This document shows positions 6,415 to 28,777 of a DNA stretch of 31,510 bases, piece by piece. This DNA comes from a virus, in the IMG/VR virus record IMGVR_UViG_3300042477_000469, positions 1-31,510 of that record. One strand, given 5' to 3'. Position 1 is the stretch's first letter, and every line of letters begins with the position of its first letter. Under the pieces are notes generated by a model. It was not told where the DNA came from. It searched no databases and was given only the letters and a program-made list of their open reading frames with translations. The translations under genes and the position numbers were made by a program.

Positions 6415-6433
6415 GTAATTAGACCAACTGGTG

Positions 6434-6463
6434 GGCCGGCCGCATCGGGGGGTGCGGCCGGCC
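6434..6463 (+). terminator. Rho-independent terminator after capsid gene
   Basis: A perfect 11-bp inverted repeat, GGCCGGCCGCA (6434-6444) and TGCGGCCGGCC (6453-6463), encloses an 8-nt loop. It is followed by the pyrimidine-rich TTCCTCTCT. The U-tract is broken by C residues, so termination may be partial, leaving read-through into the glycosyltransferase and tail genes. Confidence 0.8.
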
Positions 6464-6478
6464 TTCCTCTCTAAAAAA

Positions 6479-8620: not shown

Positions 8621-9291
8621 AAAAAACCCTGACGATCAGCGGCCACAGGCGGCCGGACTATTTCCAGCGCGTGCTGTCCGCGCTCTCCTTTTGCGATGGC
8701 GTCAGCGAGTACGCCGTCACTGCCGTGCTGGATCCCAGCGAGTGGACCGACCAGCTGGCCGATATCGCCCGTGGCCACGGCATGGCCGTGCATATTCCGG
8801 GAAAGCACCTTGGCTGCGGGGCGGCCATCCGGCACTGCTTGGCGCTGGGCTTTGAGGCGTCCGACTACCACGTTCATCTGGAGGACGACACCGTCCCCAG
8901 CCCGGACGCTTTGCGTTGGTTTGAGTGGGCCGGCCGTCAAGCCAGTCCCATGACCCTGACCATTTCCGGCTACAACCAGCACGCCGGAGATGCCGAGGCC
9001 AACACGGCCGGCTGGCGTCATTGGTTTACCCCGTGGGGCTGGGCCACGTGGCGGGACTATTGGGAAAAATATCTTTCGCCCTCCTGGGACGACTCTTTCT
9101 GGGACGGCGGGGTACAGCGCATCCGCGACAATTTGGGCATGGGGGAGATGTTCCCGCGCGTCAGCCGGATCCAGAACATCGGCGCCACCCGTGGCGCCTT
9201 TTGCCCATCAGAAGATTTTCACCGGAAAAATCAGCACACCACCCGCGTGGCTGGGCCGGAGGACAAAACAGAAAGGTGGATCATCACATGA
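8617..9291 (+). CDS. Glycosyltransferase, GT-A type
   Basis: This 224-aa protein begins MKKTLTISGHRRPDYFQRVL, the usual opening strand-helix of GT-A enzymes, and carries the DXD-like motif HLEDDTVPSPDAL (about residues 88-100). The block GWRHWFTPWGWATWRDYW (about 132-149) resembles the aromatic acceptor-site region of bacterial glycosyltransferases that act on short glycans. Its ATG overlaps the preceding stop (ATGA) and its own stop overlaps the next ATG. It is likely to act in series with its two neighbours on one glycan. Acceptor and donor are unknown. Confidence 0.8.
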   Translation: MKKTLTISGHRRPDYFQRVLSALSFCDGVSEYAVTAVLDPSEWTDQLADIARGHGMAVHIPGKHLGCGAAIRHCLALGFEASDYHVHLEDDTVPSPDALRWFEWAGRQASPMTLTISGYNQHAGDAEANTAGWRHWFTPWGWATWRDYWEKYLSPSWDDSFWDGGVQRIRDNLGMGEMFPRVSRIQNIGATRGAFCPSEDFHRKNQHTTRVAGPEDKTERWIIT

Positions 9292-10829
9292 ACTACGCAT
9301 TCCTTGTCGCCTACCGGGCCCGCCCGCCCCAGGAGTTTCGCAAACAGGAGCTGGAGGCCCTGATTGAAAACATCCGCACCGTCATGGCTCGCAACCCGCG
9401 GCACACCTACAAAATCTGGGTGGGTGAGCAGGACGACGACAAAAAGTTTAACCGCGGATGGCTGCTCAACGCCATTTTCAATGAAGCCGCGCGGGAGGAC
9501 GAAAACGCCTGCTTTATCCATGTAAATACCGACTACCAGCTGCCCGTGGCCGAACTGCCCGGAGAGCTGGAGGAGATGCCGGAAGGCTTTCTGGATCTGC
9601 ACGGTTACCCGCTGGCCTTGGGCGCATTCTGCGCCTTTTCCGCCCGGGCCTACCGCGCCTGCAACGGATTCCCCAACGACCTGTGGGGCTGGGGCGGCGA
9701 TGACTGGGCGATCTGGAAACGGATCGAGCTGGCCGGCCTCAAGGTGGATCGTCCGCCTCACCTCTACAACCGCTGGATTGCGGAAGGCAAGGAGCACGTC
9801 CGCGACGAAAGCAACAACGCCGAAAACATCACCAAGGCCCTGGACGTCACCGGCGCCAGCATGATGCAGAACGGTGCCAACACCGCCGCCTACTGGATCA
9901 GCCGATCCTCCAGCCCGGGCCTGCAGGGGGACGTGCGCTGGCGCAGCTTTCAGCAGCCCAAGCACTTTCTGGTCACCGGCGGCGCGGGCTTTATCGGCAG
10001 CCACTTGGTCGACGAGCTGTGCCGGACGTGGAACCGCGTGGAGGTGATCGACAGCCTGCGGTCCGGTTTCCGGCAGCAGGTCAACAACCGGGCCAGCCTG
10101 ATTGAGCGCGACATCAGCAGCTACGAATCCATCTGCCAGCTGTTTGACGGCAAGGACGGCGTCTTTCACCTTGCGGCCATCGCCCGCACGCCCTGGTGCA
10201 TCGAGGATCCGATCCTTTGCTATCAGACCAACGTGATGGGAACGCTCCACGTTTGCGAGGCCGCCCGGCAGGCCAAGGTGCCGCGCGTCGTCCTCTCCAG
10301 CTCCAACGTGGTCTACGCCTTTATGACCCCGTACCGCACCGGAAAGGAGGCTGGAGAGGGGATCGGCACCACCTACGCAGACATGTACGGGCAAAGCGTC
10401 ATTAGTTTGCGCTACAGCAACGTCTACGGGCCGCGCCAAAGTGAGACCGGGCCCAGCCCAAACGTCTTTGCCGCGCTCCGCAAAAGCCGGCGGGACGAGG
10501 GTAGGCTCGTCATCACCGGAGACGGCGAGCAGACGAGGGATTTCACCCACGTGTCCGACATTGTGCAGGGGAACCTTGCCGCCATGCGGTCCCGCCACTG
10601 CGGCGTCGTGGATCTCTGCACCGGAAAAAACTGGAGTCTAAACCAAGTGGCCCAGTGGTTTGGCGGCGAGATCCGCTACACGGATGAAAGGCCGGGCGAC
10701 GTGAAGCACATCGTCCAAAACCCGGAGGACGCCCGGCTTATTCTGGGCTGGGAGGCCAAGGTGAGCCTGGTGGACGGCATCCGTGACGTCCTGCCGGAAA
10801 TATCTTTGACACAAGCACCCACGGCGTGA
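9288..10829 (+). CDS. Galactosyltransferase-like / NAD-dependent sugar epimerase fusion
   Basis: This 513-aa protein has two domains. Residues 1-185 resemble beta-1,4-galactosyltransferases (GT7): FNRGWLLNAIFNEA (54-67), HVNTDYQLP (78-86, where the usual DVD metal motif reads NTD) and NGFPNDLWGWGGDDW (126-140). Residues about 225-500 are an extended short-chain dehydrogenase: TGGAGFIG (230-237), LAAIA, LSSSN (336-340), catalytic YRTGK (Y349-xxx-K353) and RYSNVYGPRQ (375-384). Such enzymes interconvert UDP-sugars, so the fusion may make and transfer its own donor. The loop between SSS and the catalytic Tyr is much shorter than in GalE-like enzymes. AAAGGTGG serves as Shine-Dalgarno. The open frame extends upstream to 8925, but ATG 9288 overlaps the previous stop and begins the domain. 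Confidence 0.85.
   Translation: MNYAFLVAYRARPPQEFRKQELEALIENIRTVMARNPRHTYKIWVGEQDDDKKFNRGWLLNAIFNEAAREDENACFIHVNTDYQLPVAELPGELEEMPEGFLDLHGYPLALGAFCAFSARAYRACNGFPNDLWGWGGDDWAIWKRIELAGLKVDRPPHLYNRWIAEGKEHVRDESNNAENITKALDVTGASMMQNGANTAAYWISRSSSPGLQGDVRWRSFQQPKHFLVTGGAGFIGSHLVDELCRTWNRVEVIDSLRSGFRQQVNNRASLIERDISSYESICQLFDGKDGVFHLAAIARTPWCIEDPILCYQTNVMGTLHVCEAARQAKVPRVVLSSSNVVYAFMTPYRTGKEAGEGIGTTYADMYGQSVISLRYSNVYGPRQSETGPSPNVFAALRKSRRDEGRLVITGDGEQTRDFTHVSDIVQGNLAAMRSRHCGVVDLCTGKNWSLNQVAQWFGGEIRYTDERPGDVKHIVQNPEDARLILGWEAKVSLVDGIRDVLPEISLTQAPTA
10806..10811 (+). promoter_or_regulatory. TTGACA start-proximal element (10826 gene)
   Basis: TTGACA lies within the last codons of the epimerase gene and ends 14 nt before the GTG at 10826, which has no Shine-Dalgarno sequence. 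Confidence 0.5.
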
Positions 10830-14725: not shown

Positions 14726-15415
14726 ATGCCCTACTACGAGCAGCCCGGCCGTACGACGACGACCGACAAGGACGGCAAGCAGATCCTTAACATCACCTTT
14801 ATCGGAACCGAAGCGGCTCCGGAGCCATCTGGGATTACCGGTACGCTGCGGTCCAGCACCGTAACCAGAGATGTGGCTGGACAAGTTCGCACCCAATATC
14901 AGTACGAAACGGATGCCGACACAGGAGCCGGCACTGGCTTCCAGCCTGTGCAGGTGGAGGTGGTTTCCGCCGTCCGCACCGTGCCGATCGAGGCGCATCC
15001 CAACTTCGGCGGCGAGGGCAGGGGGGGCTTCGTCACCGCAGCCGGCAAAAAAATCATCCGGGACGCCATCAACGTGCCAGACAAGAAGTTTTCTGATATT
15101 GAAACCGAGATCCGGGACTCCGGCTCAGAGGTTCCTCGCGCCCGCAGCTTGTACGGGTACCTGCTGGATGGCATCACCAGCTACTACGAGCCCTCGCTGG
15201 TTATCCGCAAGACCTACCAAGCCTCCAGCCCGCCTTCCGCCGGGCAGGTGGGCAAGATCGCCAACCCAGGCGTAAGCATCGCCGGCGTGCCCAAGGGCGC
15301 CACGTTTCTGCTGGTCAACGTCTCCGCCCGCGGCCAGTCCGGCGCCTACACCGTCACCGAGGAATATGAAATGAGCGGGGAGGGCGGCTGGGACACCTTC
15401 CTCTACGGTTCTTGA
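14726..15415 (+). CDS. Distal tail protein
   Basis: This 229-aa protein follows the tape measure, the position of distal tail or hub proteins. It is Thr/Gly/Tyr-rich with strands such as KQILNITFIGTEA, YQYETDADTGAGTGFQPVQVEV and GATFLLVNVSARGQSGAYTV. The YLLDGITSYYEPSLVIRKTY block and repeated PSAGQVGKI suggest a beta-sandwich. No enzymatic motif is visible. The ATG has no Shine-Dalgarno but a one-mismatch TTGATA ends 16 nt upstream, similar to the nine exact TTGACA sites. Confidence 0.5.
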   Translation: MPYYEQPGRTTTTDKDGKQILNITFIGTEAAPEPSGITGTLRSSTVTRDVAGQVRTQYQYETDADTGAGTGFQPVQVEVVSAVRTVPIEAHPNFGGEGRGGFVTAAGKKIIRDAINVPDKKFSDIETEIRDSGSEVPRARSLYGYLLDGITSYYEPSLVIRKTYQASSPPSAGQVGKIANPGVSIAGVPKGATFLLVNVSARGQSGAYTVTEEYEMSGEGGWDTFLYGS

Positions 15416-20830: not shown

Positions 20831-20969
20831 GCTAATTCTTTTGTGTTTGGCTTTTTTCTCTTGCTCTCCCAAGCGAGCGGACAACAACGCCCTGCCAAGG
20901 TATTCGGACATGGGCGCGGCCGCCGATGCTGGAAAAGTTGTCGCCCCGCCGGTGCCGTCCGGCCTGTGA
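20817..20969 (+). CDS. Micro-lipoprotein with YSDMGAAADAG motif (copy 2)
   Basis: This 50-aa protein has a signal MKFIKLILLCLAFFSC with lipobox FFSC (Cys16), leaving a mature lipid-anchored peptide of about 35 residues. It contains LPRYSDMGAAADAGKV, matching the 4399-4533 product. Over the 11 codons from Tyr to Gly all residues are identical while five codons differ silently, so the shared motif is under protein-level selection. The first half is AT-rich like the preceding receptor gene and the second half GC-rich, so the composition joint lies inside this gene. It precedes the lysis cassette. Function is unknown; superinfection exclusion is a reasonable guess. Confidence 0.75.
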   Translation: MKFIKLILLCLAFFSCSPKRADNNALPRYSDMGAAADAGKVVAPPVPSGL

Positions 20970-20972
20970 CCC

Positions 20973-21113
20973 ATGGCCACGCCATACCAGCAGCTGATTT
21001 CCATTCTTAAGTGGATGCAGGCCGAGGGGCTGGTCGAACTTTTCTACGACGATGCCGGCCGGGAGTGCGTCCGCATTACCCCGGAAGGCATGAAATTTGA
21101 GTTTGGAAAATGA
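20973..21113 (+). CDS. Small winged-helix-like protein
   Basis: This 46-aa protein has the pattern LISILKWMQAEGLVELFYDD and AGRECVRITPEGMKFEF, the recognition helix plus wing of a minimal winged-helix domain (wing with ITPEG). It could be a small regulator, or a remnant of one. Its ATG follows the lipoprotein stop by 3 nt, and its own stop overlaps the next ATG (ATGA). No partner domain is visible. Confidence 0.5.
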   Translation: MATPYQQLISILKWMQAEGLVELFYDDAGRECVRITPEGMKFEFGK

Positions 21114-21334
21114 GTGATTCCGATATTTTGACCGAGCTCCGCATCGCCGTGGCGAGGATTGAGCAGCGCCAGATACACATTCTGGAATTATTCGAGGATC
21201 ACAAGGGCAAGATGAAGGCCCTGGAGGATGAGGCCGGCACGATCAAAGGCCGGGTCTGGCTGATCTCCACCATCGTTTTCGGGGTGCTGGCCGCCGCCTG
21301 GGAGATCATAAAAAACAGGCTCCTCGGCCATTAA
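21110..21334 (+). CDS. Holin-like / XhlA-like membrane protein
   Basis: This 74-aa protein has a soluble coiled-coil N-terminus (LTELRIAVARIEQRQIHILELFEDHKGKMKALEDEA, split here for reference at residues 6-41) followed by one transmembrane helix near residues 50-68 (VWLISTIVFGVLAAAW) and a short basic tail. Soluble coil plus single C-terminal membrane helix is the layout of XhlA-type holin partners. It starts the cluster that runs into the candidate spanins and the endolysin, so a role in membrane lesion formation or its timing is likely. Confidence 0.6.
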   Translation: MSDSDILTELRIAVARIEQRQIHILELFEDHKGKMKALEDEAGTIKGRVWLISTIVFGVLAAAWEIIKNRLLGH

Positions 21335-21366
21335 TCGTTTCTTAACCCCTTAATCCCTAACTGCCT

Positions 21367-21372
21367 TTGACA
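21367..21372 (+). promoter_or_regulatory. TTGACA start-proximal element (21386 gene)
   Basis: This TTGACA lies in an intergenic gap and ends 13 nt before the ATG at 21386. No Shine-Dalgarno sequence and no -10 box are visible. Confidence 0.5.
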
Positions 21373-21385
21373 TGCCGGCCACGGC

Positions 21386-21550
21386 ATGGAAATCATCACC
21401 CACATCGCATCCAACTGGCAGTCCTACCTGGGCGTCGTCACCGCCGTGCTGGCCGCGGCCATTGCCGTCGCCACCCTGATCCCCGGGGACGAGCCGGAGC
21501 GGACGCTCCAGAAGATCGTCGATTTCATTTCGCAAATCTCCCGCAAATAA
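21386..21550 (+). CDS. Small holin-like membrane protein
   Basis: This 54-aa protein has a single strong membrane helix, YLGVVTAVLAAAIAVATLI (residues 14-32), then an amphipathic tail (DEPERTLQKIVDFISQISRK). A short N-terminal soluble part, one membrane span and a charged C-terminus is common among small phage holins. It lies between the XhlA-like gene and the spanin candidates. Holins are poorly conserved, so the assignment rests on topology and position. Confidence 0.55.
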   Translation: MEIITHIASNWQSYLGVVTAVLAAAIAVATLIPGDEPERTLQKIVDFISQISRK

Positions 21551-21559
21551 GGGGAGGGG

Positions 21560-21736
21560 ATGATCACCGGTGCCCTTACTGTCCTCGGCACCCTCTTGGC
21601 GCTGGTTCTCTGGTGGGTTCAAAACCGCGGGAAAAGCCGGCACGAATATCGGGACGCCATCATTGAGGCCGAGCGGCGCAAGCGGGACCAGCAGATTGAT
21701 TCGTGGTGGACTAAGCGCCCTCCTGCTGGCTCTTAG
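21560..21736 (+). CDS. Putative inner-membrane spanin (i-spanin)
   Basis: This 58-aa protein has an N-terminal membrane anchor (ALTVLGTLLALVLWWVQ, residues 5-21) and a charged helical periplasmic part (SRHEYRDAIIEAERRKRDQQIDSWW). It carries a strong GGGGAGGGG Shine-Dalgarno. It overlaps by 41 nt a downstream out-of-frame lipoprotein gene, the arrangement seen in Rz/Rz1 spanin pairs. At 58 aa it is much shorter than lambda Rz (153 aa), so a reach to the outer membrane would depend on its partner; it could instead be another holin. Confidence 0.5.
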   Translation: MITGALTVLGTLLALVLWWVQNRGKSRHEYRDAIIEAERRKRDQQIDSWWTKRPPAGS

Positions 21737-21950
21737 CCTTGCCGGCTGTGCCACGGTCACGCCGATTGCGGACGGCCCGCCTCCGCGCCCGGAAACGATC
21801 GAGGCGCTCATCTACGAGTGGGACAAGATCGAAAGAAAGGAAGGCCCCGCTCCGGCCGCTTACCGCGACCAGTACGTCTCCGCGCTTAAGGCTTTATCTG
21901 CAAGTCTGGCTGAAACAGAGAAGTGGCGCCACCGGGCCGAAAGCAAATGA
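21696..21950 (+). CDS. Putative outer-membrane spanin lipoprotein (o-spanin)
   Basis: This 84-aa lipoprotein starts at TTG 21696, the best available start since it begins exactly at a signal peptide: MIRGGLSALLLALSLAGC with lipobox LAGC (Cys18). The mature part starts ATVTPIADGPPPRPETIEAL and continues as a charged coil. Pro-rich lipid-anchored peptides encoded out of frame inside an inner-membrane partner are the hallmark of o-spanins (Rz1). The gene begins within the previous one and its stop overlaps the endolysin ATG. Longer GTG starts (21570) would bury the signal peptide. The role is disruption of the outer membrane in the last step of lysis. Confidence 0.6.
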   Translation: MIRGGLSALLLALSLAGCATVTPIADGPPPRPETIEALIYEWDKIERKEGPAPAAYRDQYVSALKALSASLAETEKWRHRAESK

Positions 21951-22447
21951 CCTGGCGGCAGATTGTTGACCGCAGTGAGGGCCACATCGCCAAGCTGGCT
22001 CCGGGATTCCGGGAGCGGGTGGCCAAGTGGTACCAGGAGCTGACGGCTAAAAGAATCCCGGTGCTGATCTACTGCTCCGTCAGGACACCGGCGGAACAGG
22101 ATGAGCTCTACGCCCAGGGCCGGACCAAGAAGGGGACCAAGGTGACCAACGCCAAGGGCACGCCCGTGGCACAATCGTTCCACTGCTACGCCAGGGGCAT
22201 TGATGCGGTGCCCGCCAGTCGTAACAGCGCCGGCGAGTACCTGGCCGCGTGGGAGGACACGACCACCTATGAAATCATGAGGAAGATAGGCGAGAAGCAC
22301 GGTCTGCGCTGGTTGTCTTGGGAGCTGCCCCATTTCGAGGACGGTACATTTAAGGACTGGCGGGCCTTGGCCGGCGTGGCCACATCCGCACCACAATCTG
22401 CCAAACCAACCAAGGCCGGACGCAAGGTGTCTATCCGCAAGCCATGA
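21947..22447 (+). CDS. Endolysin, M15-type (L-Ala-D-Glu) peptidase
   Basis: This 166-aa zinc peptidase would cut the peptide stem of peptidoglycan. The family signature is clear: SVRTPAEQDELYAQGRT (about 44-60), the metal block SFHCYARGID (H79 and D86) and a final LPHFED (H129). Conserved Trp-rich WLSWE precedes the last ligand. Length is typical of endolysins such as T5 Lys and A500 relatives. There is no signal peptide, so export depends on the holin-like neighbours. ATG 21947 overlaps the o-spanin stop; a GTG at 21923 adds eight residues and is less likely. Confidence 0.88.
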   Translation: MTWRQIVDRSEGHIAKLAPGFRERVAKWYQELTAKRIPVLIYCSVRTPAEQDELYAQGRTKKGTKVTNAKGTPVAQSFHCYARGIDAVPASRNSAGEYLAAWEDTTTYEIMRKIGEKHGLRWLSWELPHFEDGTFKDWRALAGVATSAPQSAKPTKAGRKVSIRKP

Positions 22448-22782
22448 CGCACGGCGTTACACCCCCGATGTCCAAGGAGCATGAGCTGCACCTAGCCTCC
22501 ATCATGGAGGCGTTCATCAAGGACTTTTCCAAGAAGTACCGCAAGGGGCAGGCGGAGCATGGCGGGGCCCTCTGGATGCGGCCGTGCTGGAGCGATGCCA
22601 TCAGCGAGGTGCTGGATCTGGTATCATATGTTTACACCCATAAGGTCCAGCTTTCCGTCATTGCCGATCTGGCGCTGAAGGGGGCGGAGGACAAGACCGT
22701 GGCTGCGGCGGACGCAAGGGAGAGCTGCGTGAGGATACTGCAAGTCCTTCAAGGCATGCCAGGGTACGAGGACAAAAAGTAA
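22444..22782 (+). CDS. MazG-like nucleotide pyrophosphohydrolase-type protein
   Basis: This 112-aa helical protein contains FSKKYRKGQAEHGGALW followed by WSDAISEVLDLVSYVYTHK, the arrangement K-Y-x-x-G-(Q)-x-E-H-G-G then E-x-x-D-x-x-x-Y seen in phage proteins related to all-alpha NTP pyrophosphohydrolases. These hydrolyse nucleoside triphosphates to monophosphates and pyrophosphate, perhaps to adjust dNTP pools or remove alarmone-type nucleotides. Only some of the acidic metal ligands of MazG (EExxE) are visible, so activity is uncertain. The start is ATG 22444 overlapping the endolysin stop; an in-frame ATG at 22468 is also possible. Confidence 0.5.
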   Translation: MTHGVTPPMSKEHELHLASIMEAFIKDFSKKYRKGQAEHGGALWMRPCWSDAISEVLDLVSYVYTHKVQLSVIADLALKGAEDKTVAAADARESCVRILQVLQGMPGYEDKK

Positions 22783-22798
22783 CAAGGCCCGCAACCCT

Positions 22799-22804
22799 TT
22801 GACA
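22799..22804 (+). promoter_or_regulatory. TTGACA start-proximal element (22819 gene)
   Basis: This TTGACA lies in an intergenic gap and ends 14 nt before the ATG at 22819. No Shine-Dalgarno sequence and no -10 box are visible. Confidence 0.5.
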
Positions 22805-22818
22805 CATACGGCGTAGCA

Positions 22819-23616
22819 ATGGCCCGCATTTTACTGGTCGTCAGTGACCTGCACTGTGGGTCTGAGGTGGGGCTTATGCCGCCCGACACCACCGTCCGCA
22901 CCGGGAACAAAATCTCCTTTGGCGGGAACGTGCACCAGGAGTGGCTGTGGGCGTGCTGGACGGACCTCCAAGCGCAGTTTGCCCGGATCCGCGGCAAGGA
23001 TAAGTACGCCCTTCTGCTTAACGGGGACCTCACGGAAGGCATTCACCACAAATCCATCGAAAGCCTTACGCAATCCATCGAGGATCACGCCAACATGGCG
23101 ATCGAGGCCGTGGGCGGTCTGGCTGCCAAGGCTCACAAAACCTTCGTCACGCTGGGCACGGAGGTGCACACCGGCCTGATCGAGCATTACATAGCAAAGA
23201 AGATCGGGGCCGAGGGCAAGGGGGCGAAGGCCAAGTGGCTTTTCCGTATGGCCGGATGTCTGGTGGATGTCACCCACCACATCGGCGTGACCAGCCGTGC
23301 CTATCTGGAGGCGACCAGCCTTTCCATCACCATGGGCAACGCCCGCCTCAACAGCATGCGCTGCGGCCAGGAGCCGGCCCGGATCTACTTGCGCGGGCAC
23401 CGGCACACCGGGGGCTGGTTCTCGGACGGGCAGGGGATGATCGGAGTCACCGGCGGATGGCAGTTTTTGACCCGCTACGGCCGCAAGGTCGTGCCGGACG
23501 CCATCCCCAGGCCCAGCGCCATGGTGCTGGACTGGCGACGTAAGCGGGACGGGGAGCTCCCGGAAGTAACGGAGATCGTGTTTACCCCGGATCAGGATGA
23601 AATCACCACAGTATAA
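22819..23616 (+). CDS. Calcineurin-like metallophosphoesterase
   Basis: This 265-aa protein contains the metal motifs of the superfamily in order: SDLHCG (D10, H12), LLNGDLTEG (68-70 NGD), GTEVH at 113-117 in place of the usual GNHE, a THHIG segment and GHRHTGG near residue 193. Such enzymes hydrolyse phosphomonoesters, phosphodiesters or nucleic acids with two metals. Phage copies often lie near replication or DNA metabolism genes, but this one sits between lysis and lysogeny genes beside a nucleotide-hydrolase-like neighbour. The substrate is unknown. Translation likely starts at ATG 22819 with the TTGACA element 14 nt upstream. Confidence 0.85.
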   Translation: MARILLVVSDLHCGSEVGLMPPDTTVRTGNKISFGGNVHQEWLWACWTDLQAQFARIRGKDKYALLLNGDLTEGIHHKSIESLTQSIEDHANMAIEAVGGLAAKAHKTFVTLGTEVHTGLIEHYIAKKIGAEGKGAKAKWLFRMAGCLVDVTHHIGVTSRAYLEATSLSITMGNARLNSMRCGQEPARIYLRGHRHTGGWFSDGQGMIGVTGGWQFLTRYGRKVVPDAIPRPSAMVLDWRRKRDGELPEVTEIVFTPDQDEITTV

Positions 23617-23890
23617 GCCGGAGGACCTGCAGGCCAGCGCCTGGCGGGCTGCCTTTAAAAAGGTGAACCAAAGCCAAGCGGAGTTAATCCCGCCGGGCTG
23701 GCATACGCCGGATGAAATCGCGGAGAAGCTGGGGTACTGCAAAGAGGTGGCCATGCAGAAGTGCCGGGAGATGGCCAAGGTGGGGATGGTGGAGCGGCGG
23801 GATTTTAAGGTGGCGTGGGGCCACATCGTGCGGCCGCGTCCGCACTATCGGCTGGTCAACAATCCGGCTCGTGGCCGTAAGCCCGGATAA
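23597..23890 (+). CDS. Winged-helix DNA-binding protein
   Basis: This 97-aa protein overlaps the phosphoesterase gene by 20 nt. Residues 34-75 form a helix-turn-helix with wing: GWHTPDEIAEKLGYCKEVAMQKCREMAKVGMVERRDF. The basic C-terminus (RGRKPG) fits DNA binding. It may be a transcriptional regulator of late genes or of its neighbours. Its 3' end overlaps the convergent minus-strand membrane protein gene by 35 bp, with no terminator visible between them. Confidence 0.6.
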   Translation: MKSPQYKPEDLQASAWRAAFKKVNQSQAELIPPGWHTPDEIAEKLGYCKEVAMQKCREMAKVGMVERRDFKVAWGHIVRPRPHYRLVNNPARGRKPG

Positions 23891-24086
23891 GCTGGCGCAG
23901 CAGGTTATTGGTGCGCTTGGTCTCGGTGATTTGTTCGTCCGCCTTGTCTTTTAGATCCTGCAAAAGGTGGCGGCACTTGTAGACGTAGTAGGGCATTAGG
24001 ATGGCCATGACGGCCAGCACGATCAGGCCGATCAGGATCGGCAGAAAGAACAGCGTCCAAGCCCCGTCAGCCGCTTCGGCAATCAT
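23856..24086 (-). CDS. Small membrane protein, minus-strand operon
   Basis: This 76-aa protein has a strong hydrophobic segment (LFFLPILIGLIVLAVMAILM, residues 12-31) and a charged C-terminal coil (CRHLLQDLKDKADEQITETKR). It is the second gene of a two-gene leftward operon, coupled by ATGA to the ribbon-helix-helix gene upstream. Membrane proteins expressed from a lysogeny region often protect the lysogen (superinfection exclusion), which is a hypothesis here. It has no recognised family. Confidence 0.6.
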   Translation of the reverse strand: MIAEAADGAWTLFFLPILIGLIVLAVMAILMPYYVYKCRHLLQDLKDKADEQITETKRTNNLLRQLIRAYGHEPDC

Positions 24087-24292
24087 ATCCCTTTTGTCCT
24101 AATTTTTGCCCGTGACCGACCGACCGCATATTTCGCAGGGGTCTCGTGGAGGGCGTTTCCCAGGTTAATCTCCCTTACCAAAAGCATGGTGACCAAGGCA
24201 GACAGGCTGACGCCCGTTCTTTTTGCGTGGCCTTCCGCCCTCCGCTTGACGACAGGATCGATGGTTAAGGTTGTCTTTTCCTTTTTCAGCAT
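24083..24292 (-). CDS. Ribbon-helix-helix repressor-like protein
   Basis: This 69-aa protein of the Arc/CopG type has the DNA-contacting strand KTTLTIDP (5-12), helix 1 VVKRRAEGHAKRTGV and helix 2 SLSALVTMLLVREI, then a basic tail. Such dimers bind short palindromes. The start codon lies 9 bp from an ACGTAT-N3-ATACGT inverted repeat, so it probably controls its own leftward transcription and that of the opposed gene. Its nearest relative in the window is the 24389-24556 product. It could be a lysogeny repressor, or an antitoxin without a visible toxin. Confidence 0.8.
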   Translation of the reverse strand: MLKKEKTTLTIDPVVKRRAEGHAKRTGVSLSALVTMLLVREINLGNALHETPAKYAVGRSRAKIRTKGI

Positions 24293-24300
24293 ATCAACGG

Positions 24301-24317
24301 TACGTATAAAATACGTA
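24301..24317. promoter_or_regulatory. Inverted-repeat operator O1 (TACGTAT-AAA-ATACGTA)
   Basis: This is a perfect 7-bp inverted repeat with a 3-bp centre. It lies 9 bp upstream of the leftward ribbon-helix-helix gene and would overlap its promoter region. The core ACGTAT-N3-ATACGT is repeated at 24363-24377. It is a good match to the short palindromes bound by Arc-type repressors. Confidence 0.75.
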
Positions 24318-24362
24318 TCCAGTCAAGGGCTCAAAAAAAAATTACAAAAAGGTCTTGCCAAC

Positions 24363-24377
24363 ACGTATACCATACGT
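24363..24377. promoter_or_regulatory. Inverted-repeat operator O2 (ACGTAT-ACC-ATACGT)
   Basis: This 6-bp inverted repeat has a 3-bp centre and the same arms and spacing as the operator 61 bp away (centre to centre). It lies 12 bp before the start of the rightward ribbon-helix-helix gene and just downstream of a TTGCCA that could be its -35 box. Two equally built operators flanking divergent starts suggest a switch. Confidence 0.75.
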
Positions 24378-24388
24378 ATTGAAGACGC

Positions 24389-24556
24389 GTGGCACGAGGA
24401 ACCCTAAACGGCAGGCGGGCGGAAAAAATTACGCTGACCATTCCTGCCTCGGTAAAAAAATCGGCTTTCCGTCATGCCGCTAAAAAGAGAATTTCGTTAA
24501 GCCAGCTCGTCACTCATCTCATCGCACGCGAGGTGGGGAATGGAAAAACAAGATAG
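24389..24556 (+). CDS. Ribbon-helix-helix protein, divergent partner
   Basis: This 55-aa protein starts at GTG 24389, the only ATG/GTG/TTG start that fits before the domain because an in-frame TGA lies at 24380. The sequence EKITLTIPASVKKSAFRHAA followed by KKRISLSQLVTHLIAREVG has strand, helix 1 and helix 2 of the Arc/CopG fold and aligns with the opposite-strand protein (TLTI, SLSxLVTxLxxRE shared). It is therefore a paralogous divergent regulator. It precedes the excisionase-like gene by 6 bp and may regulate it. Being very short, it is easily missed by gene finders. Confidence 0.75.
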   Translation: MARGTLNGRRAEKITLTIPASVKKSAFRHAAKKRISLSQLVTHLIAREVGNGKTR

Positions 24557-24562
24557 TCGTTT

Positions 24563-24946
24563 ATGATATCGGGGGCTTTCAACGGTGACGGTGCCATGGG
24601 AAACGGGAGGCCCCCGCATGCAGAATATCTGTCTGCCGCTCTGGCGAAGCGCGCTTTTAACCAGGCGATGAAACTGAAAGAGCTGGCGGCAGCTTACGGG
24701 ATTGCCTACGGCAAGATGCGCCGGATGTCTTTGGAGCCTGGGTTCCCCATCGTGCTGGGCGTGGTAGTGCCGGGGGATTTTGACCGCTGGCGGGCGGAGG
24801 CGGCTGGCCGGCGTCCACAAACCGGCGCAAATCCTCTACCTCGTGCCGGACGTACATCTCGTGAACTAGCTCTGAACCGTGGTTTAACAGCCGCATGGCC
24901 GCACCTATTGGCACACCTGCCCGGCGCAGATTCGACGCGCGCGTAA
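24563..24946 (+). CDS. Excisionase-like / AlpA-type small DNA-binding protein
   Basis: This 127-aa protein starts at ATG 24563 (ATG 24596 is an alternative). Residues about 35-80 resemble excisionase/AlpA winged helices: MKLKELAAAYGIAYGKMRRM followed by LEPGFPIVLGVVVPGDFDRW, the usual FPxxxG...xxxxxxW ending. The last 45 residues are antisense to the catalytic domain of the integrase and are probably non-conserved. Position beside the integrase and after a repressor-like gene supports a role in excision. Convergent overlap with the integrase is about 290 bp. Confidence 0.6.
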   Translation: MISGAFNGDGAMGNGRPPHAEYLSAALAKRAFNQAMKLKELAAAYGIAYGKMRRMSLEPGFPIVLGVVVPGDFDRWRAEAAGRRPQTGANPLPRAGRTSRELALNRGLTAAWPHLLAHLPGADSTRA

Positions 24947-25817
24947 CCCGGAGGCAGTGAAAACAGTGCAAATACAGCCCCAGCCTATCAAAGACCGGTC
25001 GAAAGTAGGTGGACGCCTTGGCCGGCAGACGGCAGGTGATCGGCAGCCCAGCCTTTTTCATGGCCGTAAGCATGGGCCGCAAGGTGGCCGGGATGGGCAC
25101 GGTAAAGGATTTGGCCGCCCCGCCTTTGGGGGAGGGGAATGTGATCGTGCCGTTATCCAAGTCCACACAGCGCAGGGGGATTTGGGTTTCCGCCAAGCGA
25201 CAGCCTGTGGCCAGGGAAATCTCAAAGGCCACGCGCATCCACTCCTTTCCGGCCGGCAGATTGGCCAAGGCAATGCGGACGCGGTCAATCTGCTCCGGGC
25301 TAAAGACCGGCTTAATCCTGCGCGGCTCGGCGTATTTAAGGCGGTAGTCGTCGAGCTCTCGGGTATGGATGCGGCCCAGCAGCCGGCCCTGGCGGTGGAT
25401 CCATTTCATGATTTTAATGTCTCGCAGGGCTTGGTTGCGGTGGACGGACCGGCCGGAGACCCGCCGGTCTGGAGAGATGCGCCACGGGATATACATTTCT
25501 GCCATCGCCGGGGTGAACTGCTCGGAGGTGATGCCTTGCTCCGTCATGAACAGCTGAAGCCAACGCCAGGAGTTTCGGTAATGGATCATGGTGGAGTGCA
25601 CGGCGGGGTAGCTCTGAATATGCGGCAGGATCCAGTCGTCCCGGGCCACCGGCCGCTTTTCGCGTACCGAAAGGCCGGCCGCTTCCTCAATGGCTCGGGC
25701 CCGGTGCAGAGGATTACCCACCAGCCAGCGCGTGCCCTTGGATCGCCACTGTCCGGTAGGGGATTTGAACCGCAGCCAGTACCAGGGCGAGTCTTTCCGG
25801 GCAAAAATCGAAGCCAT
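24657..25817 (-). CDS. int: Tyrosine integrase
   Basis: This 386-aa site-specific recombinase would insert and remove the phage genome at an attachment site. The catalytic set is present: R207 (TGCRLAE), K231 (SPKGG), H287-C-L-R290 (HCLR), H313 (LNHGS) and nucleophile Y322 (HEMYVRH). The N-terminal arm-binding part is basic with WYWLRFKSPTGQWRSKGT, and a core-binding domain spans about 60-160. About 48 residues after the core form a Pro/Ser/Arg-rich tail antisense to the excisionase-like domain and may be dispensable. Transcription runs leftward from the attP-like sequence. There is no clear Shine-Dalgarno; TTGATA lies 10 nt before the ATG. Confidence 0.95.
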   Translation of the reverse strand: MASIFARKDSPWYWLRFKSPTGQWRSKGTRWLVGNPLHRARAIEEAAGLSVREKRPVARDDWILPHIQSYPAVHSTMIHYRNSWRWLQLFMTEQGITSEQFTPAMAEMYIPWRISPDRRVSGRSVHRNQALRDIKIMKWIHRQGRLLGRIHTRELDDYRLKYAEPRRIKPVFSPEQIDRVRIALANLPAGKEWMRVAFEISLATGCRLAETQIPLRCVDLDNGTITFPSPKGGAAKSFTVPIPATLRPMLTAMKKAGLPITCRLPAKASTYFRPVFDRLGLYLHCFHCLRVTRASNLRRAGVPIGAAMRLLNHGSELVHEMYVRHEVEDLRRFVDAGQPPPPASGQNPPALPRPARWGTQAPKTSGASCRRQSRKLPPALSVSSPG

Positions 25818-25868
25818 CGGACAAGCGTATCAAATCGCTTAAATCCGCAAGATAAATAAGAGAACCCG

Positions 25869-26264
25869 ATGGAACTAATTAACCAAAACAACTCTTATCA
25901 TCGTCCTCGGGGGTTCAAATCCCTCCACTGCCACGGTTGGAATGACAGGAAGTTACGCAAGGGACGTGACAACAGCGTAACAAACAAGATTCATGACGGC
26001 GGATTTCGCCTCCTAATCGTCGCGCTCTGTGCGCGCGCGTTTATCGACCGCCGCCTGTTTGGCCTACGCAAGCCGGTGCCGTGTGTCCGGATCCAGCAAG
26101 AGTCTTTAACGGACCTGGAGTACTTCATTCACCGCCTTGCCCCCGTTCTCTGGGACATGGCGGGGCTGTGCCGCCTTAACGGTGACTATGCGCTGCGCCG
26201 CTGCCGCCAGCCGGCCAAGGGCTTCCCTGTAACGATTGGACTAACCACAGGAGGTACAGCATGA
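25869..26264 (+). CDS. Uncertain ORF spanning the attP-like site
   Basis: A frame of 131 codons from ATG 25869 runs through the tRNA-like 3' sequence and ends at TGA 26262-26264, overlapping the next ATG (ATGA). The coupling supports translation of its 3' part. The N-terminal 25-30 residues derive from the attP sequence and would be cut off by integration, so the real start may be internal; no in-frame start with a Shine-Dalgarno was found. The C-terminal part (LTDLEYFIHRLAPVLWDMAGL and YALRRCRQPAKGF) looks protein-like. No family is recognised. This stretch (about 25935-26260) would otherwise be the early-operon leader. Confidence 0.35.
   Translation: MELINQNNSYHRPRGFKSLHCHGWNDRKLRKGRDNSVTNKIHDGGFRLLIVALCARAFIDRRLFGLRKPVPCVRIQQESLTDLEYFIHRLAPVLWDMAGLCRLNGDYALRRCRQPAKGFPVTIGLTTGGTA
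25901..25934 (+). other. attP-like core: tRNA/tmRNA 3' end mimic
   Basis: The sequence contains a T-arm: stem GGGGG (25909-25913), loop TTCAAAT (the TTCRANY consensus, 25914-25920), stem CCCTC (25921-25925), then an acceptor-like CACTGCC and A. There is no matching 5' half or anticodon stem in the window, so it is only the 3' end of a tRNA or tmRNA, as found when a phage carries the end of the gene it integrates into. It lies 84 bp upstream of the integrase start. The host gene type cannot be decided here. Confidence 0.75.
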
Positions 26265-26413
26265 CGTGGGAAATCATAAAAAACATGGCCCAGCTGGTGG
26301 CGATTGCCACGGGATGGGCCCTAATTGTCGGCGCGGCTTGGGGGCTTATTGCTTTTGCCTTTTCTTTTGCCGCTTGGGCAATCCGTAAAACCATTGAGGA
26401 GGCCCGCAAATGA
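26261..26413 (+). CDS. Small membrane protein, early operon
   Basis: This 50-aa protein has a strong AGGAGGT Shine-Dalgarno 6 nt before the ATG. A hydrophobic segment from LVAIATGWALIVGAAWGLIAFAF (about residues 12-34, cited in part) gives one membrane-spanning region with short charged ends (MTWEIIKNM and RKTIEEARK). It is the first gene with a good ribosome site in the early operon. Function is unknown; early phage membrane peptides can interfere with host or with superinfecting phage. Confidence 0.6.
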   Translation: MTWEIIKNMAQLVAIATGWALIVGAAWGLIAFAFSFAAWAIRKTIEEARK

Positions 26414-26613
26414 GTGAGGCCGAAAAGCATCTGGTCATTGAAAACATGATCGCCGGACTGGTTGCCAAGTTTAACGCCACGCCGGATCTGGCGCGGCATG
26501 AACACGAAACCATGGATCCAGACGCATTGCGGGACTTAGTGGCCAAGCGGCCAGAGGAACCGGCTCCGGTGGGTTACGAGCACTTTGAACACCTGCGAGA
26601 GGAGGGAGCATGA
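26410..26613 (+). CDS. Small acidic early protein
   Basis: This 67-aa acidic protein overlaps its neighbours at both ends by ATGA. It is largely helical (EAEKHLVIENMIAGLVAKFN) with a His/Glu-rich C-terminus (GYEHFEHLREEGA). No family is recognised. The coupling in a row of tiny genes supports translation. Confidence 0.55.
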   Translation: MSEAEKHLVIENMIAGLVAKFNATPDLARHEHETMDPDALRDLVAKRPEEPAPVGYEHFEHLREEGA

Positions 26614-26780
26614 GCCTGACCACTAGACTCATGGCCTTCGCCGGATTCGTGACGATTGCAGATACAGGACGGGCGGTGCACGTGATCATTGACCGGCGCA
26701 AAAAAAACGCCCGGCTTAGACCGCACGATTCGCTCCGCGGCTACTACAAAAAGCTTAAGCACGTGGAGAAGGGCCGATGA
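26610..26780 (+). CDS. Small basic early protein
   Basis: This 56-aa protein has an uncharged N-terminus (LMAFAGFVTIADTGRAV) and a strongly basic C-terminus (RRKKNARLRPHDSLRGYY and KLKHVEKGR). It has GGAGGGA as a Shine-Dalgarno and ATGA overlaps on both sides. It could be a weak DNA- or RNA-binding peptide, or an inner-membrane peptide with a cytoplasmic basic tail. No family is recognised. Confidence 0.55.
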   Translation: MSLTTRLMAFAGFVTIADTGRAVHVIIDRRKKNARLRPHDSLRGYYKKLKHVEKGR

Positions 26781-26983
26781 TTGAGCCAACTAACGTAAGG
26801 GATTTGGAGCAGGAGGGTGTGCTGGGAAACATCAACCTATCGCAAAGCTGGAGTGCCGGGGTACAGGACGCGTTCCTCAATGCCCGGCGGGACATCTTAA
26901 TCCAGGGACTGGTCGCCCGAGTGGAGCGGCTGGAGGAGGTCTTGGCGGACTTCATCAGAAAACAAAAAGGAGGGCAACCGTGA
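26777..26983 (+). CDS. Small helical early protein
   Basis: This 68-aa protein carries a predicted coiled coil in its second half (ILIQGLVARVERLEEVLADF). It has ATGA overlap upstream and GTGA overlap downstream. No family is recognised. A coiled-coil adaptor or oligomeric regulator is possible. Confidence 0.55.
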   Translation: MIEPTNVRDLEQEGVLGNINLSQSWSAGVQDAFLNARRDILIQGLVARVERLEEVLADFIRKQKGGQP

Positions 26984-27078
26984 GTGAACTAGAACTAATC
27001 GTAAGACTAATTATTCCGGCCGCGGCGGTGGCGATATTCGCCATGGCATGGCCGGTAATCAAAAGCTGGGACGTCTGA
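26980..27078 (+). CDS. 32-aa membrane micropeptide
   Basis: This is a 32-residue frame from GTG 26980 with AGGAGG 5-10 nt upstream. It encodes one hydrophobic helix, LELIVRLIIPAAAVAIFAMA, then WPVIKSWDV. It overlaps the previous stop (GTGA) and the next start (TGATG). Size and composition fit a single-span membrane peptide. Its function is unknown, and it is short enough that non-coding status cannot be excluded. Confidence 0.5.
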   Translation: MSELELIVRLIIPAAAVAIFAMAWPVIKSWDV

Positions 27079-27590
27079 TGAGCTGGAGCGGCCCCCACTG
27101 TGATGCGGCGGAAAGGCCGGAGGCCAGCCATACCCCCGATATGGCTGCTCTTTGCGATAACCCCGTTGAAGCCCTGTACAGGGAAGCAACGGAATCGTAC
27201 TCCGGTGGGGGTCTGCCCGCTTTTGAGTCTTGGCTCAAGGTAACAACGGCAGACCAAGCCAGGCAGCTGACGATAGAAACTTTGTCCCGCGTGCTTCCGA
27301 TGCTGGTGAAGCCTGGAAACGTGAGGCTGCGGGTCTACGCGCTGATGTTTGCCATTAACAGCGATGCGTTAAACGGAGTATGGACGCAGACGGCTGCAGC
27401 AAAGGAAATGGGAGTGACGCGGGCGGCGGTAAGCAAACAGGTGCAGTGGTGGTTGGATTTCTTGGGATTCCGGCGCAACGCGCACACCAAAAGTGCGGAG
27501 GCGGTGGAGTCATATAGGACAGTGCAGCGCGAGCGGCACTGGAGACGGCAATCAATCGGAAAAAAAGGAGGGAAAAATGCAAATCATTGA
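27078..27590 (+). CDS. Helix-turn-helix replication or regulatory protein
   Basis: This 170-aa protein starts at ATG 27078 overlapping the micropeptide stop; the frame continues 30 bp upstream but without a better start. Residues about 120-145 form a helix-turn-helix: WTQTAAAKEMGVTRAAVSKQVQWW. The C-terminus is basic and Lys/Gly-rich (SIGKKGGKNANH). The N-terminal half is helical and lacks known motifs. It may initiate or regulate replication, given the downstream primase and helicase. Its 3' end overlaps the start of the next gene by 14 nt. Confidence 0.6.
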   Translation: MSWSGPHCDAAERPEASHTPDMAALCDNPVEALYREATESYSGGGLPAFESWLKVTTADQARQLTIETLSRVLPMLVKPGNVRLRVYALMFAINSDALNGVWTQTAAAKEMGVTRAAVSKQVQWWLDFLGFRRNAHTKSAEAVESYRTVQRERHWRRQSIGKKGGKNANH

Positions 27591-28209
27591 ACTAAAGCGC
27601 TTGGACCGTGAGGGCCGGGCGGTGGAAAAGGTGCCCGGGGTGCGGATTACGCCCAACGGGCTGGTGTTTGAAAAGGCGTTGAACATTGAGCAGTGGAAGG
27701 AGGTCGGCCGCTGGCTGCAGAGCTGTCGCCGGGCGCAGACTTGGCTGGACGCGGACTGGCTAAACTACGGCAAGAAGTCCTACGAGGCGGAGGATCTGCA
27801 GGAGGCCTTGGATCAGCTGGAGTTTAACTTTGGACCCAAGACAGAGGCGTTGGTGGCGTTGGGAACAGTCCCAATTGAGAAGCGGCGGCCGGAACTGACG
27901 GCGGCGCACTACCTGGAGCTGCAGAAACTTAAAACAACGAAAGATCAGGACAAGTGGGCCAAGCTGGCGGTGGCGGAAAAACTAACTCCTAACGATCTAA
28001 AGCGATCCATTGCTTCTGGTGAGGTGGTGCGCGGCTCGGACGAAAGATCCAGCGGAATCTGGACGCTGCAAGCCTGGGTGACGGAGTTTGAAATCTGGAA
28101 ACGAGATCTGCCGGAAGGATGGCAGCATGACGCAAGCTGGCACCGGATGGTCCGGGACTGGATCAAGCCGGTGATTGAGTTTGTCGAAACCGTAAAAGCC
28201 AAGGACTAG
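27577..28209 (+). CDS. ParB/KorB-like putative DNA-binding protein
   Basis: This 210-aa protein has the best Shine-Dalgarno of the operon (AAAGGAGGG, 3 nt from the A-run before ATG 27577). It contains LVFEKALNIEQWKEVGRWLQ, then a DWLNYGKKSYEA segment, then ELTAAHYLELQKLKT and PNDLKRSIASGE. The order LSxEEW..GR, DWLxYG, RRxELxxxHHxEVxxL, VxxLR is a widespread plasmid and phage pattern of unproven function, likely a helix-turn-helix DNA binder that may take part in replication or partition. It lies upstream of the primase and helicase genes. Confidence 0.6.
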   Translation: MQIIELKRLDREGRAVEKVPGVRITPNGLVFEKALNIEQWKEVGRWLQSCRRAQTWLDADWLNYGKKSYEAEDLQEALDQLEFNFGPKTEALVALGTVPIEKRRPELTAAHYLELQKLKTTKDQDKWAKLAVAEKLTPNDLKRSIASGEVVRGSDERSSGIWTLQAWVTEFEIWKRDLPEGWQHDASWHRMVRDWIKPVIEFVETVKAKD

Positions 28210-28428
28210 GTGCCGGATCTGGTTTGGTGGCGTGACGTGCTCGGCACGTTACGGGGGACGCTTGTGCGCATCCGGGAAGCTACGGCCAACCCGGATGTCC
28301 GCACGGCCATCGCCTTGGTGGATGCATTGCTACTGATGTCTGGAACAAAAAAGGAGGACGATAATGGACAACAAGTTAATCGAGGCGGCGAAAAACTACC
28401 GCCTAACTTTGCTGGAAAAGAAGTCTGA
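28210..28428 (+). CDS. Small protein with overlapping 3' end
   Basis: This 72-aa frame starts at GTG 28210 directly after the preceding TAG, with AAGGA just upstream. The first 45 residues (VWWRDVLGTLRGTLVRIREAT and ALVDALLLMSG) look like a helical domain. The last 22 residues run inside the next gene in another frame (65-nt overlap) and contain no notable pattern. No family is recognised. Confidence 0.4.
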   Translation: MPDLVWWRDVLGTLRGTLVRIREATANPDVRTAIALVDALLLMSGTKKEDDNGQQVNRGGEKLPPNFAGKEV

Positions 28429-28777
28429 GCATTACGAAAGGGAGCTGGAAAAGATCAGGCAAATGCTGGCGCAGCTAAGCCAAGAGGCAGTGCTGCGATC
28501 TGCCCTCAAGAGGCCTGAGCTAGCCCTGCCAGTCTTAGAGGTGCCAAAGGAAATCAGCTATCGACCGGAAAACGGTAAAAAGCAGCGCAATCGCACAACG
28601 CACGTGGTCGCGCAGCGCTGGGAATTTTGGCGCAAGCAGTATGAAGCGGGCATGACGGTATCCATGATCGCCAAGGCCTGGGACTGTGATCATGCCACGG
28701 TGTGCAACGCCAGAAGGTGCGGATGGAAACCATCCATCCGTGGGAAGCGGCGTGGATTTTTGGTCAAGTCATGCTGA
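28364..28777 (+). CDS. Small helix-turn-helix protein
   Basis: This 137-aa protein has an excellent Shine-Dalgarno (AAGGAGGACG before ATG 28364). It has an N-terminal coiled coil (KKSEHYERELEKIRQMLAQL) and a C-terminal helix-turn-helix: YEAGMTVSMIAKAWDCDHAT followed by CNARRCGWKPSIRGKRRGF, a basic recognition and tail region. It resembles short phage regulators. The stop overlaps the primase ATG. Confidence 0.6.
   Translation: MDNKLIEAAKNYRLTLLEKKSEHYERELEKIRQMLAQLSQEAVLRSALKRPELALPVLEVPKEISYRPENGKKQRNRTTHVVAQRWEFWRKQYEAGMTVSMIAKAWDCDHATVCNARRCGWKPSIRGKRRGFLVKSC

Follow-up and report, generated by a model that had tools for sequence, protein, structure and literature searches.

A divergent pair of small genes beside the integrase gene of a phage contig probably forms an immunity-type switch for lysis-lysogeny or excision, built from two paralogous Arc-type ribbon-helix-helix (RHH) repressors which share operator specificity. 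The contig, below called the window, is the whole 31.5-kb stretch of IMG/VR phage DNA that was analysed. The sequence-only reading of this DNA had suggested a compact switch, and the idea is well supported by a cassette recurring in 21 related contigs, by operators placed within promoters, by exchange of the cassette as a block and by the absence of a recognisable CI-type repressor from 18 contigs. That the switch controls lysogeny is a further step which we infer; the genes directly under the rightward promoter would be those of the second RHH protein and of an excisionase-like protein.

Two divergent ribbon-helix-helix genes

A divergent pair of small Arc-type proteins (69 and 55 aa), separated by a gap of 96 bp, had been described earlier, and both open reading frames were found as described:

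24083–24292, minus strand: RHH-L, 69 aa, ATG start; Arc-type RHH protein by weak profile matches, strand KTTLTI being the putative DNA contact
24389–24556, plus strand: RHH-R, 55 aa, GTG start; paralogue of RHH-L, strand KITLTI

Alignment of the two proteins showed 51% identity over 41 aa, and included the TLTI and SLSxLVT patterns previously said to be common to both. In the relatives, the RHH-R gene starts with ATG or GTG at the equivalent position. RHH-L did not reach the cut-off of any curated RHH family (the best match, DUF6364, scored 24.9 bits vs 27.3 required), and RHH_5 and CcdA were also below threshold in the family libraries. Assignment to the RHH (MetJ/Arc) superfamily is thus a prediction based on fold and sequence pattern. 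The AlphaFold model of the RHH-L family, whose input alignment was headed by a class B relative and not by the window protein, has an extended N-terminus followed by helices 12-25 and 29-45, with a pLDDT of 69 (moderate confidence). The best Foldseek matches of this class B model were P22 Arc structures (prob 1.0, E 0.08), and a profile made from seven relatives matched Arc and CopG among PDB structures, the E-values being weak. When aligned with Arc, the RHH strand residues K/T/T fall on Arc positions Q9/N11/R13, which touch DNA.

Putative operators and promoters in the gap

Two inverted repeats of identical design, with centres 61 bp apart, had been claimed for the gap between the genes. Both were found to be exact: ACGTAT-N3-ATACGT occurs at 24302-24316 and at 24363-24377, and a search of the whole record with one mismatch allowed gave no further copy. 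Among 60,000 Markov-shuffled gaps, 12% contained at least one 6-bp inverted repeat, and none contained two that agreed in both the 6-bp arm and the loop. A better description of each palindrome is a pair of self-complementary hexamers with a pitch of 11 bp, which gives the following putative sites:

24301–24317, no strand: putative left operator, TACGTA-N5-TACGTA, including the palindrome 24302-24316
24362–24378, no strand: putative right operator, CACGTA-N5-TACGTA, including the palindrome 24363-24377; exact in the diverged relative G003 (IMGVR_UViG_3300042516_005084)
24384–24389, no strand: GACGCG, a weak third subsite on the right which continues the 11-bp pitch; G003 has GACGCA

In 18 distinct gaps, hexamers fitting TRCGYA with at most one mismatch formed 48 pairs at pitch 11 and 17 at pitch 22, with very few at neighbouring pitches; the Markov control for the 11-bp pitch gave a mean of 1.8 and a maximum of 7, and the motif was picked from the same sequences in which the pairs were counted. 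Among the palindromic hexamer classes tested, TRCGYA was first at pitch 11 and had little background at other pitches. Chance as the origin of the palindromes was ruled out by the shuffling and hexamer-pitch controls. Many promoters of the set contain three hexamers. Such arrays of 6-bp sites, one helical turn apart, would suit RHH dimers bound side by side, and it is very probable that the RHH pair acts on these operators.

A search for conserved operator pairs in relatives, which had been suggested earlier, gave a mixed answer: hexamer arrays do recur, but not every relative has the matched pair. In G003 the right operator is intact and the left one has been lost, which would make the rightward promoter the more essential target. 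Since the left hexamers are, in addition, degenerate in several class C relatives, regulation of RHH-L does not appear to be uniform across the relatives.

Apart from matches inside coding sequence, the putative operators are confined to the gap, and no copies were found in a scan near the replication genes. Three hexamers at 11-bp pitch are also present at G007:3177-3204, G018:6284-6311, G019:22963-22990, G020:20332-20359 and G021:22681-22708. These distal sites, conserved in five contigs, lie in frame within a glycosyltransferase-like coding gene, and were rejected as further operators, coding coincidence being likelier.

Promoter-like sequences were recognised on both sides of the gap:

24297–24326, minus strand: putative leftward promoter, TTGACT-18-TACCGT, ending 4 nt before the RHH-L start; 8/12 consensus matches, weak alone
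24355–24382, plus strand: putative rightward promoter, TTGCCA-16-TATTGA, ending 6 nt before the RHH-R start; 8/12 consensus matches

About one fifth of shuffled sequences reach a score of 8/12, so single promoter scores are weak. The positions recur among the relatives though the scores are modest: in most of them a TTGAC-type -35 sequence adjoins the array on each side, and the array occupies the 16-18-bp spacer. Because the -10-like hexamers end most often 6-7 nt upstream of the start codons, the transcripts would be leaderless or nearly so.

A conserved cassette exchanged as a block

With both RHH proteins, the integrase and the excisionase-like protein used as queries, 21 related contigs were obtained. 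The divergent RHH-L/RHH-R pair and a homologous convergent integrase gene were present in each (21/21), and an excisionase-like winged-helix (wHTH) gene followed RHH-R in 16 of them by a strict motif. The conserved unit consists of RHH-L on one side, and of RHH-R with the excisionase-like gene, converging on the integrase gene, on the other. Its neighbourhood in the window contains:

24596–24946 (ORF opens at 24563), plus strand: excisionase-like winged-helix gene, so named for its position downstream of RHH-R and its predicted fold
24657–25817, minus strand: tyrosine integrase gene, convergent to the excisionase-like gene; PF00589 above cut-off, PHROG integrase
23856–24086, minus strand: small membrane protein gene, its start in an ATGA overlap with the RHH-L stop; a variable slot in the relatives
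25906–25933, no strand: candidate attP core GGGGGTTCAAATCCCTCCACTGCCA, next to the start of the integrase gene and similar to the 3' end of a tRNA

The excisionase-like identity follows mainly from position. No family match above cut-off was obtained for this protein in family searches, and the matches of the fold search were weak, all with E above 0.1, the RdfS excisionase being at rank 6. The tail of the integrase gene shares ~290 bp (24657-24946) with the excisionase-like ORF on the other strand; in this overlap conservation is good for the excisionase-like frame but not for the C-terminus of the integrase. Several relatives have a similar tRNA-like site beside the integrase gene, with different sequences. 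These sites suggest integration into tRNA genes, and the attP candidate supports a temperate lifestyle.

The stretch encodes terminase, portal, endolysin, integrase and primase. Plausible genes run rightward, with the exception of those for the integrase, RHH-L and the protein after RHH-L. Between the capsid and tail genes (6431-10829, plus strand) there are glycosyltransferase-like genes and an ORF that combines domains of glycosyltransferase family 7 and of NAD-dependent epimerases, an unusual cargo for a 31-kb phage. Small wHTH-like genes, to which no role was assigned, are found elsewhere in the stretch. The phage collection contained no cultured-phage relative for class B RHH-L or for the integrase, and the genome contigs scanned for a prophage or host gave no match. 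A verrucomicrobial host is only a guess, because the best TerL match, in Akkermansia phage Moulinsart, has 30% identity.

In the relatives, the slot after RHH-L is occupied by several unrelated families or has no recognisable ORF: five contigs have a coiled-coil membrane protein there and eight a secreted-looking protein of the GGGGxSVR type, with others elsewhere. A variable slot for membrane or secreted-looking proteins is as expected of a transcript made in the lysogen, and these could be accessory genes expressed in that state. The same variability bears on whether the RHH proteins might be antitoxins or centromere-binding proteins, with the arrays as autoregulatory or centromere sites. 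Binding to short repeats in tandem is known of RHH antitoxins and of ParG/omega-type proteins, and the present RHH proteins have weak similarity to CcdA, MazE7 and RelB-like models. A toxin-antitoxin or plasmid-partition module is nevertheless highly improbable: the gene after RHH-L is not conserved, every copy of the cassette is tied to an integrase gene, and there was no PADLOC match. The toxin-antitoxin version was rejected, no conserved toxin being present in the operon, where the partner gene varies.

The relative G006 is 88% identical to the window in nucleotide sequence over 20938-23853 and 97% identical over 24623-28617. Between these segments lies the following feature:

24147–24622, no strand: exchanged block; G006 has no nucleotide match here and carries a class B RHH pair and class B operators instead

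The left edge of the exchange is within RHH-L, whose C-terminal tail is common to the window and G006. Related phages thus swap the RHH cassette en bloc, operators included. Strand TTLTI goes with TACGTA hexamers (window, G001, G002 and G003) and strand TN(L/V/I)(T/Y)L with TGCGCA-type hexamers, and both paralogues of each phage belong to the same strand class; three class C contigs have one-mismatch hexamers only. This match between hexamers and strand residues is suggestive and not strong statistics, because it probably reflects one evolutionary change. In nine phages the divergence of RHH-L correlated with that of RHH-R (r 0.88; 0/5000 permutations as high), vs correlations of 0.21 and 0.15 between the distances of RHH-L and RHH-R, respectively, and those of the integrase. 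The two RHH proteins diverge together and independently of the integrase. By analogy, block exchange combined with paired divergence is how immunity regions behave.

These observations also bear on the main rival explanation, according to which the RHH pair regulates only itself and the excisionase-like gene, and sets the timing of excision, a different repressor that escaped recognition being responsible for immunity and for repression of lytic genes. We consider this unlikely. Immunity regions are typically exchanged as blocks with a change of specificity, from which an excision timer would gain nothing obvious, and a CI-type family was not detected in the 18 contigs; yet the rival would fit the placement of RHH-R and the excisionase-like gene immediately rightward of the gap, adjoining the integrase gene, the limitation of the operators to the gap apart from coding matches, and the presence of the small wHTH-like genes elsewhere in the stretch.

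The repressor search agreed with the earlier statement that no CI/Cro-like repressor was recognised elsewhere. In the 18 contigs PF01381, PF12844, PF07022 and PF00717 gave nothing above cut-off, the CI-repressor, S24 and HTH_19 families being absent and HTH_3 having no match above cut-off; the search sees recognisable families only, and the contigs may be incomplete. In the positive control, phage Moulinsart, HTH_3 and HTH_19 were detected. Weak matches to HTH_3, below the cut-off, occurred in the window, G001 and G002, within a long ORF overlapping the tape-measure-like region; a CI/Cro-type repressor was not found elsewhere in the 18 contigs.

Comparison with known switches and a proposed mechanism

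The closest known kind of system is the immI region (Mnt/Arc/Ant) of P22. It, too, has two small divergent RHH repressor genes, mnt (minus strand) and arc (plus strand), with a 90-bp gap; its Arc operator (14798-14818) lies within the -35/-10 spacer of the arc-ant promoter TTGACA-17-TATATT, and Arc structures head the fold matches obtained for the RHH-L family. In contrast to the single hexamer type found here at both promoters, Arc and Mnt have separate operators of unlike sequences. The target in P22 is the antirepressor gene ant, whereas here it would be RHH-R and the excisionase-like wHTH gene beside the integrase gene. In addition, P22 has immI at a long distance from int/xis, a leader before arc, and C2 as its main repressor, whereas the present cassette is linked to the integrase gene and no C2-like repressor was found. 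The likeness raises the question of a secondary immunity system, in which the RHH pair would restrain an antirepressor-like gene and a separate main repressor would exist. In its favour, the divergent RHH genes of P22 immI are arranged alike, ~90 bp apart and with operators in between (PMC2629481). The gene after RHH-R, however, encodes a small wHTH protein beside the integrase gene and not an Ant-like one, and the 18 contigs yielded no C2-type main repressor, which makes this explanation very improbable.

Lambda-type CI/Cro immunity regions, including P22 immC, also have a divergent repressor pair with common operators overlapping both promoters, lytic genes linked on one side, and block exchange between otherwise similar phages. 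They differ in that CI and Cro are helix-turn-helix proteins with separate 17-bp operators, whereas here the proteins are RHH proteins with no S24 self-cleavage domain and the sites are six bases long at 11-bp pitch.

In the archaeal virus SSV1 the small RHH protein F55 binds tandem repeats at early promoters, and at the promoter of its own gene, and so keeps the virus lysogenic (PMC5569661). A small RHH regulator on tandem repeats at promoters is common to SSV1 and the proposed switch, but F55 is a single RHH protein acting on several promoters with a different repeat, and no divergent RHH partner is described in PMC5569661. The genes of the Pf4 repressor Pf4r and the excisionase XisF4 share an upstream region and are under mutual control, the repressor giving immunity, and in some Pf prophages the repressor gene is deleted and an Arc-family gene is found in its place (PMC7549136). 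The coupling of a repressor and an excisionase gene through a common upstream region resembles the arrangement proposed here; Pf4, however, is a filamentous phage with one repressor opposite xis, and not two RHH paralogues with common operators. In SPbeta, YosL is a predicted Arc-type protein in the lysis-lysogeny circuit (PMC10516654). A literature search for an RHH pair as the primary prophage switch, with subscription journals mostly outside its scope, brought up P22, SSV1 F55, Pf and SPbeta YosL, and no match.

For a switch of two RHH repressors with common operators, the following mechanism can be proposed. RHH dimers would bind the 6-bp TACGTA sites, 11 bp or one helical turn apart, and with the sites in the -35/-10 spacers of the two divergent promoters occupied, RNA polymerase would be blocked. 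Binding, repression, the protein dominant in the lysogen and immunity are all points that we infer: RHH-L would be the prophage repressor, and RHH-R a Cro-like early repressor. RHH-L, transcribed leftward like the integrase gene and the variable membrane gene, would hold the rightward promoter off in the prophage. Upon failure of RHH-L, the rightward promoter would make RHH-R and then the excisionase-like protein. RHH-R would damp both promoters in the manner of Cro and shut off RHH-L. The rightward transcript, reading through antisense to the integrase gene, may reach the replication genes. Because no operator copies were found at the replication genes, control of lytic genes would have to go via read-through, for which the rightward promoter offers the simplest but unproven route; no promoter or terminator was found in a simple scan between the integrase gene and the replication genes.

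Extended to the lineage, the proposal is more tentative, and we give it slightly less than an even chance: a whole lineage of temperate phages would make its primary lysis-lysogeny decision, and obtain its immunity, by means of two Arc-type RHH paralogues reading the same hexamer array, a CI/Cro-like system without helix-turn-helix proteins, whose specificity is swapped in nature as a ~0.5-kb cassette comprising both DNA-contact strands and the operators. If this is true, RHH proteins, which constitute a secondary immunity system in P22, can serve as the main prophage switch, and annotators could spot the switch in contigs without a findable CI-type repressor. The locus would also be a naturally occurring set of variants in which the specificity of two paralogous regulators shifts along with that of their binding sites. 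This set would make two matters testable with very small parts: the in-step re-specification of paralogous repressors and operators, and the number of immunity groups in an uncultured phage lineage.
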